A DNA stretch of 64,000 nucleotides from Flammeovirgaceae bacterium (GTDB lineage: Bacteria > Bacteroidota > Bacteroidia > Cytophagales > Cyclobacteriaceae): NCBI GenBank assembly GCA_024638265.1, contig JAHEKQ010000001.1, forward strand, positions 1 to 64,000. Direction: 5' to 3'. The stretch's first letter is position 1, and each line of letters starts with the position of its first letter. This document shows positions 1-17,592 of the stretch, piece by piece. A program made the translations under genes and the position numbers. The notes under the pieces were generated by a model. It had not been told where the DNA came from and did not search any database. It worked only from the letters and a program-made list of their open reading frames with translations.

Positions 1-1792
1 CTCTTTGAAGTTCGACGAACGAGATCTCTGACAATTGTGATGCATTACTTTCAAAGAGGATATCTTTCAATGTAAGAAGAGCATCCTTTTCCAGTTTCTG
101 CAATTGCAGTGCAATGGTGTTTTCCTCGTCATTTGTAAGGTCAATTGCCGTAGAGTTGAATGCATACCCCTGGTCGGAGCTGGCTTCGATCTCGTACCGG
201 TCTCCCGCGCGAAGGGATACCATTTCATTCCCTTCGACCTCAATTACTTCATTGCGGTCTTTGTTAATGATCCTGATTTTTGACCTCACCTTGGAATTAT
301 TGACCAGGTCCGTCACATTGATCATCACTTGTTTCTTTTCCGGAGAAAGATCTATATCATTATCAAAGTCCCGGTAAATCACCAACCCACGGACATCGAA
401 ATCAAAACTCTCTTCAAGGTAATATGGTGCACTTACTATTACGCTGTAGCTACCACCAATGGGAAGATCCAGTTGCAATCTTCCCTGTTCATCGGCAATG
501 GTCTTTATTATTTCAGACCCGGCTGAATTGCTAACAACCACTTCGGCTGGAACCGGATCGAAAAGATCACTGTCACTAATATTAAGATTTAACTTTATAC
601 TTCTGAATAATGAAATATCCTCATTGGTTTCATTGTACTGATTGACTTCCCGGAGATCATAGTAAGTGGCATACCCGGAGTAGCCCTCAGATTCCACCAA
701 CAGGTTATAGCTTTGGCCCACGGGTACTACGACGGAATATGACCCGTCATTAGGGTTATTATTCAAAGCCATAATTTCCTCCGACGTCAGTGCATTCGTT
801 ACGATAACTTTGGCGGGAACCCCATTGCCGGTATCCCTGTCGGTGATCTTCCCCGATATTACGTTATTCTTAAATTGTCTCAATTCAGGCGGGATCTCCA
901 CCGTATAAATATCCTTATTGTCATAAACGAAATACATCAGATCACCACTGGCACTGATACTGGGTAACTGATCGTCTTTTTCTGTATTAACATAATCCAG
1001 GGGCGTAGCAAAACCCCACTCACCCAAAATATTCTGCTTACTCTGGTACATATCAAATCCGCCTCTACCCCCCGGGCGGTTGGATGAAAATAAGAGCGTC
1101 TTTCCATCTGCCATGATCTTGGGTGCCTTTTCGCAGTCTACATTAATGGGAAAGGCCAGTTTAATGGGTTCAGACCATGAACCGTCGGGATTTTTTACGG
1201 TTTTGAATAAACTGGTACAGTATATATCCAGCTTACTTAATTCCTTATCCTGGGGACCATCCTCGTTGATCTTTACAAAATACAGTGTCTTCCCATCGGC
1301 AGAGATAGAGGGGAATGACTCATCAGATGATGTATTAACCGGGGCACCAAGGCTCTTGGGTTTCGACCACCCGCCTAATTCCCTTGTGCTTACATAGATA
1401 TCATTTGATGCTCCCATACCTATCGAGGCGAAGAAGTACAAGGTATTCCCATCAAAACTGATGGAGGGACCGCCAATCAAGTCGTTCTCACCTCCAAATG
1501 AATTAATTGAATCAATGGGTTGTGCCTTCCCCCAGGTGCCATCTGAGTTCAGTCGTGCTTCGAGCAGCTTAAATCCTCCAAGGGTATCTGTTTTGGCTTC
1601 GAATATGCTCGTTTTTCCATCAGCACTGATAGATGGAGCATAACCCAGAAGTATATCACGGTTGAGTTCTTCCACGATCTTTTTAGTATCTGTCGTGGAA
1701 CTCGTTGTATCTGAAAGTGCACTGGGAGCCTGGGACCAACCGAAGCAGGGAAGGACAACTAGAACAGCTATAGTTAGGCCACGGCAAATCAT
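1..1792 (-). CDS. PD40-repeat / OmpA-type envelope protein, 3' part missing
   Basis: The reading frame is open from an ATG at 1792 to the window edge (597 codons seen, no stop), so the C-terminus lies outside. It starts with a signal peptide (hydrophobic core, then CFGWSQ). About five WD40-like PD40 repeats follow (SISADGKT, SISFDGNTLYFF, SISADGKTLYF, MADGKTLLFSSNRPGG), then two or three carboxypeptidase-regulatory-like beta domains. The last visible residues (LKDILFESNASQL) match the beginning of an OmpA peptidoglycan-binding domain. I infer a periplasmic or outer-membrane protein tied to peptidoglycan. Its start overlaps the stop of the upstream TPR-CHAT gene by 4 nt (ATGA), so the two are probably translationally coupled. 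A related architecture occurs at 15586-17592. Confidence 0.85.
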   Translation of the reverse strand, partial: MICRGLTIAVLVVLPCFGWSQAPSALSDTTSSTTDTKKIVEELNRDILLGYAPSISADGKTSIFEAKTDTLGGFKLLEARLNSDGTWGKAQPIDSINSFGGENDLIGGPSISFDGNTLYFFASIGMGASNDIYVSTRELGGWSKPKSLGAPVNTSSDESFPSISADGKTLYFVKINEDGPQDKELSKLDIYCTSLFKTVKNPDGSWSEPIKLAFPINVDCEKAPKIMADGKTLLFSSNRPGGRGGFDMYQSKQNILGEWGFATPLDYVNTEKDDQLPSISASGDLMYFVYDNKDIYTVEIPPELRQFKNNVISGKITDRDTGNGVPAKVIVTNALTSEEIMALNNNPNDGSYSVVVPVGQSYNLLVESEGYSGYATYYDLREVNQYNETNEDISLFRSIKLNLNISDSDLFDPVPAEVVVSNSAGSEIIKTIADEQGRLQLDLPIGGSYSVIVSAPYYLEESFDFDVRGLVIYRDFDNDIDLSPEKKQVMINVTDLVNNSKVRSKIRIINKDRNEVIEVEGNEMVSLRAGDRYEIEASSDQGYAFNSTAIDLTNDEENTIALQLQKLEKDALLTLKDILFESNASQLSEISFVELQR

Positions 1793-4700
1793 TCTCCCAA
1801 TATAACAAAAGCCCCCCAATGATATGGATCGGGAAATTCTTTCTTGAGATCAAGCTGTGCCCTGGTAAAAGCCTGAATTTTGTCATCTCCTGACAACCAG
1901 TAATTGTAAAAGCGATTCATCAACATCTGGGTGGTTTCATCATTTACCTTCCAAAGGCTCATGATTACGCTCTTCGCTCCCGCTACAAGAAAAGCCCTCT
2001 GTAATCCATATACTCCTTCACCGTTTTTGATCGCACCAAGCCCTGTTTCACATGCTGACATAACCACCAATTCAGTGCGGTCGAGGTTAAGATTCATAGC
2101 TTCATAGGCTGTGAGTATACCATCCTCACCATTCCTCTCTTTTTCTCCAAAAAGGGTTTCATTGCTCCCTGAAAAAAGAAGGCCTGACCTGAATAGGGGG
2201 TTTGCTTTTTCGTTCTGAAGATGAATACCAAAGGCCTTACTTTCCTCTTCAACATCAAGGTCACTCATGAAAAAACCGTGCGTTGCAATGTGTAGTAGCC
2301 TTGGGCTCTCTATTCCCTTGAAGTTCTCCTCTGAAGCATCGTGTTCTACAAAAATCTTTGAATTCCACTGGTTTCCCTGAAGCGTCTCAGCAAGTGTTTC
2401 GATCTCTACTTTAGTGCCTGGCAAACCGGGTACACCTCCCGAAAATCCATATGCCGAAGTTCTCGTTTCAGATATTCCCAGCGACCTGTTACCGAAATCG
2501 GGATTGCCAAATACCGAAGCAGTTTTTCCCTGTCCGGCATCAGTTGGGTGTTCCTCTACAATCTCCCTTGTGTTACTAACCAGTCTAATGTCAAACTCAT
2601 CGAGCACATAGATATTGCTACGAAAATCCCAGAGAGTTGGATAGCTGATCTTATTGAAAATCCCGTCTGAGCTGATATAGACTGTATTCACGTCAGTCAA
2701 TTTTTCTTCCAGGGGTACCCAATAATTCTCAAAAGAGATCTTATCACCTATTGTGAACTTTATCGCATTGCGGTAGTAATTGAACATCCTGGATTCCAGT
2801 TGATTACCATAATTGAATATTGCCAACTCAGGAGTATCAAAACCGGGTTCCAGCAGCAGGGCAGTATAGTAGACAGAATCAGCATCAAATGTCCTTTCGA
2901 TCCGGAAAATCTCAATGGCAGCTTGTCCTTCTTGCAGGGAGGATTTGACATCTTCCCAGGAAATACCCGACTTGTCAATCTCTCTTGAAAACAGTTCGGA
3001 TTTAGCGGATATATCCTTTTCGAGGTCGTTTGCCCTCGCCGTAAGTGCCTCCAAATCAATTCCCTCCGTCTGAATCTCTTCGAGGGTCAGGTTATAATAT
3101 TTTATCAACCTCTCCTTCAGGCTCAACCACTCACCAAATGTCGATATCAGCTCATTATCCCCACTGTTCAATATTCTTTGCCTGATCTTGCTCGTACTAT
3201 TCAGTAACAGTGCCTTGGTAGATAACTGCAGGTCATAGAGCAGTTCAAGGACTTCCTTATTCCCCTTCAGAGCCTCCTCAATCGCGTAATCTTTAAAGGA
3301 ATCAAATACCGGCCTGATTTTCTCATAAAAGGCACTTTTTTCCTTCTCGCTTAAAGCCGGAAAATACTCACTGATCTGAAAAAGGTATTTTTCAATCGCT
3401 CTTTGATAATAGTCGAGCGCTTCCGGTTTCTCTAGTACCCGTTTTATTGAGGCCATACCGTATAATGAGTATGCATAGTCGGGATGGTTCTCCCCCAGAA
3501 TTCGAGACCTGATATCCGTTACCTTTTGAAAAAGTTGTTCTGCCCCTTCGTAATCTTCTTTGTCCTGTAATAAGGTAGCGAGGTTATAAAGGGTCTTCGC
3601 ATAGCTCGGGTGCTCCTCGCCATAAGTCTTTTCATCAATACTAAGTGCCTGGCGGAAAAGAGTCTCTGAATTGTCCAGCTCGCCCACTTCTTTGTAGAGG
3701 CTTGCAAGGTTATGAAGCGTTGTGGAATAGAGGGGATGATCCTCCCCTACCAGTATTCGATCTATTTCAAGAGCTTCTTCCAGTAGGGGTTTGGCTTCAG
3801 AATAATCCCCTTTTAACTGGTATAGAGTTGCCAGGTTTTCCAGTGAGTTGGCATAATTGGTAGTCTTATCACCTCCTACCGATTTATAGATATCCAATGA
3901 TTCCCTCAATAACGGTTCTGCCTGGGCAAAATTCCCGAGAGTCTGGTAGAAGAAGGCCAGACTGTTTAGGGCTTCTGCATAAAGAATATGTGTATTACCC
4001 AAAGCCTCTCTACGGATATCGAGCACCTCCCGAAATGCGGGTTCTGCCTCCTTGTACTTTCCCTGGGCGAGCATAATCCTTCCATAATTCAAAAGGGCAG
4101 CAGAATAATTCCGGTGCGTTTTTCCCGACTCACCCTCAACAATTTCCAGGGCGCTGGAAATGTATTTTTCCGCATCCCCGTATTCCCCGAGTTCCAGTAG
4201 CAGTAATGCCAGATTTTGCTGGGTATTGGCATAGGCTGAGCTTTTTGAGCCATGGGTATTTTCCACCTGATCCAGAGCCCGATCGAAAAACCGCTTTGAA
4301 AGCAAGAATTGTCCTCTTTCCTTGTAGAAACTTCCCATATTGTTCAGGACGGCCGCAAGTCCGCGTCCGGGATTAGCTTCAAAAATTGACAGAGCTTCTT
4401 TATAGGCTATTTCCGCTTCCCCGTAATTTCCCATTTGTTGATGAAGTGAAGCCAGACCATTCAGACTTTCCGCCCTGTCCAGGTTGGTTTCAGTAAGTTT
4501 TTCAAGCGATGAAGAGTAATATTGAAGTGCCTCGTCCAGCTGATTATTTATTTTGAGCACCCTTCCAAGGCCCGCTTCAGATCTCGCAATTATTCCCGGC
4601 TCCTGGCCGCTGGAGATGTTTAATTCGACTGCCTCTTTTTGCAGATTCAGTGCTTTCTCATTTTCGCCCAGGGCTTCCAGGAGTTTTACCATGTTTTCAG

Positions 4701-5748
4701 CTATAACCGCATAAGTCCGCTGATCTGCTGTTTTTGTCTTGTCCAATAAACCAAGCGCCTCCACGTAATGACGTGTCGCATCAGCATACCTCCCCTCGTT
4801 AAAGGCCAACACAGCCAGATTATTCAGCGACATTGCATCTGAACCACCCTCAGCGGAAACTCCTTCGAGAAGAGAATCCGAATAGTCATTTAAGCCTATA
4901 TCTCTCAGGCTTACAGCCCACTGGTTCAGCTGACTGCTCAAGGTGGCTGGACTTTCGGAATAAACTTCTTTCAAAGATTCCACCGCTGAATCAAAAAGAT
5001 CTTCTGCACCTTGTTTTGAACCCTGCAGTGCTGCAGTCGCAGAAATCTTTAATGACTGGGCGTAAATTTCCTCACCCGTGAGATCATTGGCTTTATAGAT
5101 GTCCACGAGTTGTGTTGCAAGGGGTTCGGCTGCCTCATAATCTCCACGGGCGCTCAACAGATTAGCATAATCAAAGCTCGCTAACAGGTAGTCATTATCG
5201 ACCTCATCTGTCTCCAACCTGTCAAAGGCATTTGCAAATAATTCGCCGGCGCGCTCATCATCGCCCGAATAATAATATGATGAGGCAAGTTTCCACTGGA
5301 CTCTCAGAAGCTCATAGTCATTCTGCTCTAGTAAATCAGCATAGACTTCATAGGACTCGCTAAAACTTTCAATGGCTTTTTCATATTGATCCGTCATCTG
5401 GTACGCCGATCCCAGGTTAAACAGCGTAGTCGCGTAGGTCTCATCACCTACTTCAGAAACTGACTTCCTGACCTGCAACTCCTTTTCACCGTACTCGATG
5501 GATTTATTATAGTCCTCGAAAATGAAATGAAGGTTGACTAATGACCTCAGGATGGCGGCATAATTTCCATTTGCCGAGCCATCGTTTACCATGTAATTTT
5601 CAAGACAGGCGTTCGCCTTTTCCATGGCGAGTGAATACTCCTCGTCTACCAGGTGCTGTTGTGATTGTTGGAAAAGTTCAGCCCATTCCTGACCCATACA
5701 GACGTTGGAGCAGGATAATATCAATATGATGAAGAAGACACGTTTCAT
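1789..5748 (-). CDS. Exported TPR-CHAT (caspase-like) protein
   Basis: A 1319-aa protein with an N-terminal signal peptide ending near CMGQ, so it should leave the cytoplasm. Residues about 25-790 are kinesin-light-chain-type tetratricopeptide repeats (recurring Y..L..LA.L....G.Y.EAE...). A helical linker (about 790-960) follows, then a C-terminal CHAT domain with the expected cysteine-peptidase dyad: His1157 in HIATHG and Cys1233 in SACETGLG. CHAT is a caspase-HetF fold, and members may be proteases or scaffolds. Export of a CHAT protein and its 4-nt overlap with a PD40/OmpA-type gene suggest an envelope role. The substrate is unknown. No CRISPR or gRAMP gene is nearby, so it is not the Craspase type. 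Confidence 0.9.
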   Translation of the reverse strand: MKRVFFIILILSCSNVCMGQEWAELFQQSQQHLVDEEYSLAMEKANACLENYMVNDGSANGNYAAILRSLVNLHFIFEDYNKSIEYGEKELQVRKSVSEVGDETYATTLFNLGSAYQMTDQYEKAIESFSESYEVYADLLEQNDYELLRVQWKLASSYYYSGDDERAGELFANAFDRLETDEVDNDYLLASFDYANLLSARGDYEAAEPLATQLVDIYKANDLTGEEIYAQSLKISATAALQGSKQGAEDLFDSAVESLKEVYSESPATLSSQLNQWAVSLRDIGLNDYSDSLLEGVSAEGGSDAMSLNNLAVLAFNEGRYADATRHYVEALGLLDKTKTADQRTYAVIAENMVKLLEALGENEKALNLQKEAVELNISSGQEPGIIARSEAGLGRVLKINNQLDEALQYYSSSLEKLTETNLDRAESLNGLASLHQQMGNYGEAEIAYKEALSIFEANPGRGLAAVLNNMGSFYKERGQFLLSKRFFDRALDQVENTHGSKSSAYANTQQNLALLLLELGEYGDAEKYISSALEIVEGESGKTHRNYSAALLNYGRIMLAQGKYKEAEPAFREVLDIRREALGNTHILYAEALNSLAFFYQTLGNFAQAEPLLRESLDIYKSVGGDKTTNYANSLENLATLYQLKGDYSEAKPLLEEALEIDRILVGEDHPLYSTTLHNLASLYKEVGELDNSETLFRQALSIDEKTYGEEHPSYAKTLYNLATLLQDKEDYEGAEQLFQKVTDIRSRILGENHPDYAYSLYGMASIKRVLEKPEALDYYQRAIEKYLFQISEYFPALSEKEKSAFYEKIRPVFDSFKDYAIEEALKGNKEVLELLYDLQLSTKALLLNSTSKIRQRILNSGDNELISTFGEWLSLKERLIKYYNLTLEEIQTEGIDLEALTARANDLEKDISAKSELFSREIDKSGISWEDVKSSLQEGQAAIEIFRIERTFDADSVYYTALLLEPGFDTPELAIFNYGNQLESRMFNYYRNAIKFTIGDKISFENYWVPLEEKLTDVNTVYISSDGIFNKISYPTLWDFRSNIYVLDEFDIRLVSNTREIVEEHPTDAGQGKTASVFGNPDFGNRSLGISETRTSAYGFSGGVPGLPGTKVEIETLAETLQGNQWNSKIFVEHDASEENFKGIESPRLLHIATHGFFMSDLDVEEESKAFGIHLQNEKANPLFRSGLLFSGSNETLFGEKERNGEDGILTAYEAMNLNLDRTELVVMSACETGLGAIKNGEGVYGLQRAFLVAGAKSVIMSLWKVNDETTQMLMNRFYNYWLSGDDKIQAFTRAQLDLKKEFPDPYHWGAFVILGE

Positions 5749-15585: not shown

Positions 15586-17592
15586 ATGAACCGATTAGTT
15601 AAGGTCATACCGGTTATTCTCCTATTGCTTTTAAGTGCAATACCGCTGTATTCACAGTCACAGGAGGACAAACAACTCGCTCAGCAGTTCATGGAGATGG
15701 CTGATGAGATCATGAAAAATACCAGGGCTGAAATTGAAGCGCGTGACAACTACGAACAGGCTGCAAAGCTTGATCCAACCAATATCAGGGCCAATTACCT
15801 GGCTGGCCGATACAGGATAATAACATCACAACGGGGCATGGCTGCGCCGTTTTTCGAACAAGTGAAAGCCCTCGATCCAAATTATCGTTTTGAAATCGAT
15901 TACCTCATAGGGCATGCCTATCATTACCAACACGAATTCGATAAAGCTATAGAACATTATGATCTTTACAAGCAAAGGTTGGAAGCGCAACCCGACTACC
16001 AGGGTGAAGGGTACATCCCCATGAGGGATGTAGAACGGCGCATTGAAGAGTGCAATAACGGAAAGGATCTGATCAAAAATCCAGTTAATCTTACCATAAC
16101 AAACCTTGGTCCTTCAATCAATTCTGAGTTTGATGACTTTGCCCCGGTATTTAACGATGATGAATCCCTGATTATTTTTACTTCGAGGCGCCGGGAGGAT
16201 AATTTGAATGAAGATGTTGACGATGACAATATGCCTTTCGAAGATATCTATTATGCCTACCTGGAAGATGGCGAATGGGACGAAGCTATTAATATTGGTG
16301 ACAACATTAACACGCCATTCCACGACTCCAACCTCGCCATGTCTCATGATGGCAAACAACTGTATATCTATAAGGAGGTAGGCAATGGGGATATTTATGT
16401 CTCCCAGCAAAATGAAGAAGATGGTCTTTGGTATGACCCTGAGCCTCTGGGAAATAACATTAATACGCCAGAATTCACCGAAAACTCTCTGACCCTTTCT
16501 GATGATGGTAATCTAATGATTTTCGCCAGTAATCGTTTTGGGGGATACGGAGATTTTGATCTTTACTATACTACACTTGATGCCGGGGGTCAATGGAGTG
16601 CACCTACTAACATGGGTGGAATAATCAATACGAGATACCTCGAAGACGGACCCTACCTCGACCACGATGGCAAAACACTGTATTACAGCAGTGAAGGTCA
16701 CAACACAATGGGTGGATACGATATTTTCAGGACTGTGTATGATTCAGCCAGTAATCAGTGGTCTAAACCGGAGAATGTCGGCTACCCAATAAATACCGCT
16801 GATAATGATATCTTCTACATCACTGCCACCGCGAGTGATGATATCTTCTTCTCCTCTATCAGGGAGGATGGATACGGATTCCTCGATATTTATAAGCTGA
16901 GCCCACCATCGGAAGATGTAGAAGAACCGGTTGAGGAGCCCGTGGAAGAACCCAAAGACCTGCTCCCGGTAAAAGTGGTAGTTACCATTATCGATGGCAA
17001 GTCGGGAGATCCCCTCGATGCCAACGTCACCTTGAAAAAAGCAGACGACAAGTCGGATGTCGTATTGGTAAAAGAAGGGGTGGGGGTATATACAACGAAT
17101 TTAGAAAATGAACAGGCTGAAAATTATGTGTTATCGGCAGACTTTGAGGGGTATATTTTTGAAACCAGGGCACTCCGTATACCAGGCATGAAAGAAGAGG
17201 ACTATGCTTACGAGCGCAATATCAGTATGCAGAAGATCGCAGTGAATGTGACCAGGGTCCTTAGAAATATCTACTTCGAATTTGATAAGGCCGTATTTCT
17301 TTCGGAATCTATGGACGAATTAAACAAGCTTCTCAAAATGATGAACGATAACCCAGACGTGAAGGTGGAGATTGGCGGACATACGGATAATGTGGGTGAT
17401 GCTGGTTATAATAAAAATCTTTCGCAGAAAAGGGCCGACGCTGTACGAGCTTATCTTATAGAAAATGGGGTAGATGCCAATCGGGTGACTTCGGTGGGTT
17501 ACGGAGAAGAAAGGCCCCTGGCTTCTAATGACGATGAATTGGAAGGCCGTGAATTAAACAGGCGTGTCGAGTTCACGGTAAAGGAAGACTAG
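15586..17592 (+). CDS. TPR / PD40 / OmpA-family envelope protein
   Basis: A 668-aa protein with a signal peptide (ending SAIPLYSQ). Order of domains: TPR-like helices (about 25-130), PD40 beta-propeller repeats (about 165-435), a Glu/Pro linker (VEEPVEEPVEEPKD), a carboxypeptidase-regulatory-like beta domain (about 465-540), and a C-terminal OmpA domain (about 550-668) with IYFEFDKAVF, GGHTDNVG, LSQKRADAVRAYL and NRRVEF. The OmpA domain should bind peptidoglycan. Proteins of this build accompany PorP/SprF genes in T9SS/gliding loci (PorE-like), and here it ends 1 bp from a convergent sprF-like gene. It may anchor that surface complex. Confidence 0.92.
   Translation: MNRLVKVIPVILLLLLSAIPLYSQSQEDKQLAQQFMEMADEIMKNTRAEIEARDNYEQAAKLDPTNIRANYLAGRYRIITSQRGMAAPFFEQVKALDPNYRFEIDYLIGHAYHYQHEFDKAIEHYDLYKQRLEAQPDYQGEGYIPMRDVERRIEECNNGKDLIKNPVNLTITNLGPSINSEFDDFAPVFNDDESLIIFTSRRREDNLNEDVDDDNMPFEDIYYAYLEDGEWDEAINIGDNINTPFHDSNLAMSHDGKQLYIYKEVGNGDIYVSQQNEEDGLWYDPEPLGNNINTPEFTENSLTLSDDGNLMIFASNRFGGYGDFDLYYTTLDAGGQWSAPTNMGGIINTRYLEDGPYLDHDGKTLYYSSEGHNTMGGYDIFRTVYDSASNQWSKPENVGYPINTADNDIFYITATASDDIFFSSIREDGYGFLDIYKLSPPSEDVEEPVEEPVEEPKDLLPVKVVVTIIDGKSGDPLDANVTLKKADDKSDVVLVKEGVGVYTTNLENEQAENYVLSADFEGYIFETRALRIPGMKEEDYAYERNISMQKIAVNVTRVLRNIYFEFDKAVFLSESMDELNKLLKMMNDNPDVKVEIGGHTDNVGDAGYNKNLSQKRADAVRAYLIENGVDANRVTSVGYGEERPLASNDDELEGRELNRRVEFTVKED

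Follow-up and report, generated by a model that had tools for sequence, protein, structure and literature searches.

The locus at the left end of the window (by which we mean the whole stretch of 64,000 nucleotides that was analysed) raises the question of whether a caspase relative may act in the cell envelope, and with which partners, bacterial caspase relatives having been studied mostly as cytoplasmic effectors in CRISPR, gasdermin and conflict systems. A preliminary description of the locus had put forward an exported protein of 1319 aa with kinesin-light-chain-type TPRs and an intact His1157/Cys1233 dyad, and each of these elements is borne out by the open reading frame of gene 1, which occupies 1789..5748 (all window coordinates of genes 1 and 2 refer to the minus strand) and encodes a TPR-CHAT protein that is predicted to be exported. 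Its N-terminus, MKRVFFIILILSCSNVCMG followed by QEW, has the look of a Bacteroidota Sec/SPI signal peptide, with n- and h-regions and then cleavage before a glutamine according to the Q-rule (PMC5837995), and by inspection and a rule-based hydropathy script it spans residues 1-19 (5692..5748) with predicted cleavage before Gln20. This is followed by a TPR array of kinesin-light-chain type (TPR_12/TPR_10) at about residues 60-770 (3439..5571), where the Pfam TPR_12 model matches nine stretches with an E value of 4.6e-103, by a conserved linker region at residues 790-1009 (2722..3381) that is common to CHAT proteins of the order, and by the CHAT domain (PF12770) at residues 1010-1319 (1792..2721), which scores 206.7 bits in Pfam compared with a gathering cut-off of 24. 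The predicted catalytic residues His1157 (codon 2278..2280), in the context LLHIATHGFF, and Cys1233 (codon 2050..2052), in the context VMSACETGLG, are invariant in 16 aligned relatives and make up the His/Cys dyad of CHAT proteins, consistent with gene 1 being a His/Cys protease that is predicted to be catalytic. The active site is assigned from the alignment, because the CHAT alignment profile found no match among the solved structures of the PDB and the AlphaFold2 single-sequence model of residues 790-1319 is poor (pLDDT 35.5).

The next gene starts inside the stop codon of gene 1, as had been noted: the junction reads '...GAATGATTT...', and the ATG of gene 2 (1792-1790) overlaps the TGA of gene 1 (1791-1789) by 4 nt in an ATGA (1789..1792). 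Gene 2 (2..1792) encodes a PD40 propeller-CRD-OmpA protein, predicted from its reading frame and Pfam matches to be secreted, and it is cut after 597 of about 683 codons at the window start, which is the first base of contig C45. Its N-terminus, MICRGLTIAVLVVLPCFGWS followed by QAP, likewise resembles a Q-rule signal peptide (residues 1-20, 1733..1792, cleavage predicted before Gln21; PMC5837995), and the PD40 β-propeller region (about residues 21-310, 863..1732) begins directly past it, with no N-terminal TPR domain, and leads into a CarboxypepD_reg-like region, or CRD (about residues 311-560, 113..862). These are the only two Pfam domains of gene 2 inside the window, and the preliminary description of a signal-peptide PD40/OmpA protein holds there for the signal and for PD40; the OmpA part lies outside. 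The last 40 residues recur in the first 120 bases of contig C67 of the same genome, where the reading frame runs on to encode an OmpA domain (G000:C67:1-381; PF00691, E 1.9e-21), and from this overlap and the gene order in relatives we infer that the two contigs join within gene 2, giving a protein of about 683 aa, the same size as in relatives. The OmpA domain carries the motif D-x7-N-x6-R, with the spacing of the PorE residues Asp576, Asn584 and Arg591 that hold meso-DAP (PMC7192894), and gene 2 is thus, judged by these residues, probably a peptidoglycan-binding partner.

The CHAT end, gene 2 and a third gene were used to query 146 relatives, and the gene 3 profile was run on 390 genomes of the order; reading of the neighbourhoods then revealed contiguous sets of CHAT, PD40/OmpA and gene 3 in 13 genomes from one order of Bacteroidota (G053, G022, G032, G006, G058, G060, G087, G054, G076, G126, G154, G346 and G390), with three more sets split by contig ends (the source genome G000, G007 and G068). 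The pairing that the preliminary description had proposed to look for across Bacteroidota is therefore conserved, and this conservation supports its idea of an envelope-targeted caspase-like protein, as predicted, with a dedicated and probably peptidoglycan-binding partner. The cassette is present in about a tenth of the 146 relatives, the gaps between its genes are mostly -4 to +24 nt, and the trees of gene 2 and gene 3 agree. The gap between genes 1 and 2, measured in 12 contiguous relatives, amounts to 6-13 nt in eight of them and to 40-42 nt in two, and taking the longest ORF gives -31 nt in the remaining two; none keeps the ATGA overlap of the window. The wording "fused by overlap" does not denote a fusion of the two proteins. 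We also considered a natural CHAT-PD40/OmpA fusion among CHAT proteins of 1945-2057 aa (L104-L107) and rejected it, these having given no PD40 or OmpA match; a short CHAT fragment directly downstream of the full-length gene for the 1945-aa protein (L106:7015-7569) is perhaps a partial duplication. The His and Cys motifs are present in 20 of the 21 cassette-clade CHATs, and the remaining one is truncated at a contig end. Gene 3 is missing from three loci that carry CHAT and PD40/OmpA (L090, L092 and L100), close CHAT relatives in G011, G024 and G070 (L101-L103) lack genes 2 and 3 and each adjoin a divergently transcribed PD40/OmpA gene, and 38 control CHATs in the same genomes are without genes 2 and 3. 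Cassette neighbours include housekeeping genes, MurF in the window and LptC on C67, and linkage of either to the cassette is not kept in most relatives inspected.

The third gene, which was absent from the preliminary description, encodes a protein of ~740 aa with a signal-peptide-like start and lies directly after gene 2 in relatives that bear the pair; in the source genome it is found at C67:378-2564 and shares 4 nt with the 3' end of gene 2. Pfam and NCBIfam gave no match for it and the PDB none that was usable, the profiles of CHAT and gene 3 having hit there only TPR proteins and apolipoprotein E, weakly (E >= 0.05). A profile search across the phylum, covering 395 sampled genomes, gave gene 3 matches at E <= 1e-40 only in the taxonomic family of the source genome. 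The N-terminus appears weakly TPR-like, and recurring GxxxW-type motifs in the alignment suggest that the C-terminal half is possibly a propeller. The first ~400 residues are common to a separate exported protein of ~600 aa in many genomes of the family (G000:C54:36846-38165, which is L147, and L157 and L170), whose surroundings are alike in the loci read and which has no Pfam or NCBIfam match. An LptC-related gene lies directly 3' of gene 3 in the source genome (L027:2591-3109), and a similar small gene occupies this place in G007. The cassette provides a first context for this unannotated gene 3 family.

Genes 2 and 3 also occur beside a different protease, a replacement that the preliminary description likewise did not contain and that involves either Peptidase_C14 or another CHAT lineage. 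Ten genomes, eight of one genus in family f19 plus G254 and G223, have genes 2 and 3 without CHAT, followed on the same strand by a TPR-Peptidase_C14 caspase that is predicted to be exported and whose His/Cys motifs, YYSGHG and DAC[FY]SG, are intact in all ten; the gene order differs, with CHAT first in the cassette and C14 last. An adjacent C14 gene would not be expected by chance, because these genomes hold only about 9-17 Peptidase_C14 genes each, which at ~6000 assumed genes gives an estimated chance adjacency of roughly 0.4% per locus. In the C14 version, gene 2 is preceded by the gene for an exported protein of ~514 aa that matches DUF4384 weakly (L179, L182-L187 and L139). In the tree of 59 CHATs, the f22 cassette CHATs (G126 and G154) fall in a different, strongly supported clade from the f1 cassette CHATs, and the hypothesis that all cassette CHATs form one clade is rejected (p-AU 0.005). 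In the trees of both gene 3 and gene 2 (support 99/97 and 100/99), C14-bearing G223 is the sister of the f22 loci, and genes 2 and 3 have therefore been inherited jointly, with a changing protease beside them. A caspase-fold neighbour is found at 26 of the 27 loci with genes 2 and 3 (three of the CHAT cases being joined across contig ends), leaving G051 as the one locus without, and this replacement of the protease beside constant partners, the strongest line of evidence here, suggests that cutting of proteins outside the cytoplasm is the purpose of the set.

Export was called by the same rule-based hydropathy and Q-rule script rather than by SignalP, with the other ORFs of the same loci as background and with non-cassette CHATs included among the 59 CHATs counted. 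Signal-peptide-like starts are found in 57/59 CHATs, 28/30 gene 2 proteins, 37/37 gene 3 proteins and 10/10 C14 proteins, compared with 260/539 in the background, and when a Q-rule site is also required the counts are 52/59, 28/30, 37/37 and 10/10, compared with 136/539. Predicted export is the rule for CHATs in the loci studied, and the earlier view that export sets this CHAT apart is not supported by the comparison.

From gene order, conservation, the intact dyad, the peptidoglycan-binding residues, the export-type N-termini and the exchange of protease, all of which are computed observations, we infer a periplasmic location, a physical complex, protease activity, a cue and a substrate, and we consider it moderately probable that genes 1 and 2 belong to a cassette of three genes whose products form an envelope protease complex anchored to peptidoglycan. 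Sec/SPI would export each of the three proteins, and gene 2 would be held on peptidoglycan by its OmpA domain and would present its propeller for docking or sensing. Gene 1 would be the catalytic subunit, with a TPR array that docks partners or a cue and controls the His/Cys CHAT protease, and gene 3 would act as a third scaffold or sensor. In the C14 version the TPR-C14 protein would provide the catalysis, with anchor and sensor again coming from genes 2 and 3. An envelope cue would then release the protease, which would cut an exported or outer-membrane substrate, although none of the cassette genes can be recognised as encoding a substrate. A broader reading, which we entertain tentatively while leaning slightly against it, is that the peptidoglycan-anchored sensor pair of PD40/OmpA and the new family is a general chassis on which caspase-fold proteases, namely two CHAT lineages and the TPR-Peptidase_C14 caspase, have been mounted independently, as a pathway of extracytoplasmic caspase-like regulated proteolysis in Bacteroidota. 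The cassette would give a caspase relative an extracytoplasmic location together with a cell-wall anchor, a third partner and a tolerance for replacement of the protease, and it offers a defined genetic unit for testing an envelope role of caspase-fold enzymes.

The C14 version has a partial precedent in a 2012 survey, which records OmpA domains in 14 operons of metacaspases as well as likely signal peptides on many metacaspases (PMC3501461). The association is in this respect partly precedented, though those metacaspases/orthocaspases are Peptidase_C14 enzymes, whereas gene 1 is a CHAT, and in the passages of the survey that we consulted we find no CHAT version, third gene or exchange of protease (PMC3501461). 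A search of open-licence papers found no CHAT with OmpA and TPR, and no such periplasmic CHAT.

A comparator with the propeller-CRD-OmpA order of gene 2 is PorE (PG1058) of the T9SS (PMC7192894, PMC5053529), which has an outer-membrane/periplasm setting like that predicted for gene 2. Gene 2 differs in lacking the N-terminal TPR domain, in having a Q-rule SPI-type signal instead of a lipobox and in adjoining a protease gene, and it falls outside the PorE family NF052230 (cut-off 600), with 78.3 bits for the cut window copy and 164 bits for a full relative. The CHU_0125-type OmpA-like outer membrane integrity protein also combines PD40 and OmpA as gene 2 does, and here too the scores (120 bits for the window copy and 204 bits for a full relative) are below the cut-off of 620 for NF053607. 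These sub-threshold matches are nevertheless the best that gene 2 has in NCBIfam, and along with the shared domain order, with the impaired outer membrane of a chu_0125 deletion (PMC5891637) and with a true CHU_0125 gene (840 bits) that stands separately, a few genes from the cassette, in G087, they favour a reading of the cassette as an accessory to the T9SS or to outer-membrane maintenance, in which gene 2 would be a shortened relative of PorE/CHU_0125, with the protease trimming or quality-controlling secreted or outer-membrane proteins. We regard this as unlikely while giving it the most weight among the alternatives, given the absent TPR domain and lipobox, and a core T9SS role is ruled out by distribution, SprA being present in 142/146 relatives and the cassette in about a tenth. 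A second TPR-PD40-OmpA protein, with a PorE-like layout, is encoded elsewhere in the window (15586-17592, plus strand).

Craspase is cytoplasmic, and its Csx29 joins a TPR array to a His/Cys CHAT protease, as gene 1 does. It is an RNA-guided CRISPR complex (PMC9729208). Gene 1 carries a predicted export signal, and by sequence its profile did not match solved CHAT chains in the PDB. Exchange of effectors beside conserved sensors is typical of conflict systems, and it counts, together with the patchy distribution of the cassette, for an envelope defence or cell-death device, whose propellers would sense phage or envelope attack and whose protease would kill or disarm the cell. Caspase-fold effectors, CHAT included, are indeed common in conflict systems (PMC10907252). 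A PADLOC defence assignment was ruled out, since genes 1 and 2 matched only generic TPR/repeat models; no mobile or defence genes are evident adjoining the cassettes, several of which lie beside housekeeping genes, and the gene trees track family lines rather than frequent transfer, all of which make the defence reading improbable.

A further reading, in which operon history has placed these genes side by side with no joint function and the CHAT is one of many exported TPR-CHATs whose role is unrelated to genes 2 and 3, is very improbable, for although CHATs (six in the source genome) and PD40/OmpA proteins are both abundant, the same partners accompany a caspase-fold protease of three lineages at 26/27 loci and the 38 control CHATs lack them.

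In the 3.6 Mb of the source genome, Peptidase_C14 matches number 12 and CHAT matches 6. Another of its CHATs, of 953 aa (L022:7133-9994), which may have a signal of lipoprotein type, lies within a run of secreted genes that includes a Reg_prop protein. An exported TPR-CHAT of ~1400 aa, from another lineage than the cassette CHAT, is encoded beside a methylmalonyl-CoA mutase (PF01642) in many members of the family, among them the source genome (L025, L170, L171, L173, L174 and L175).
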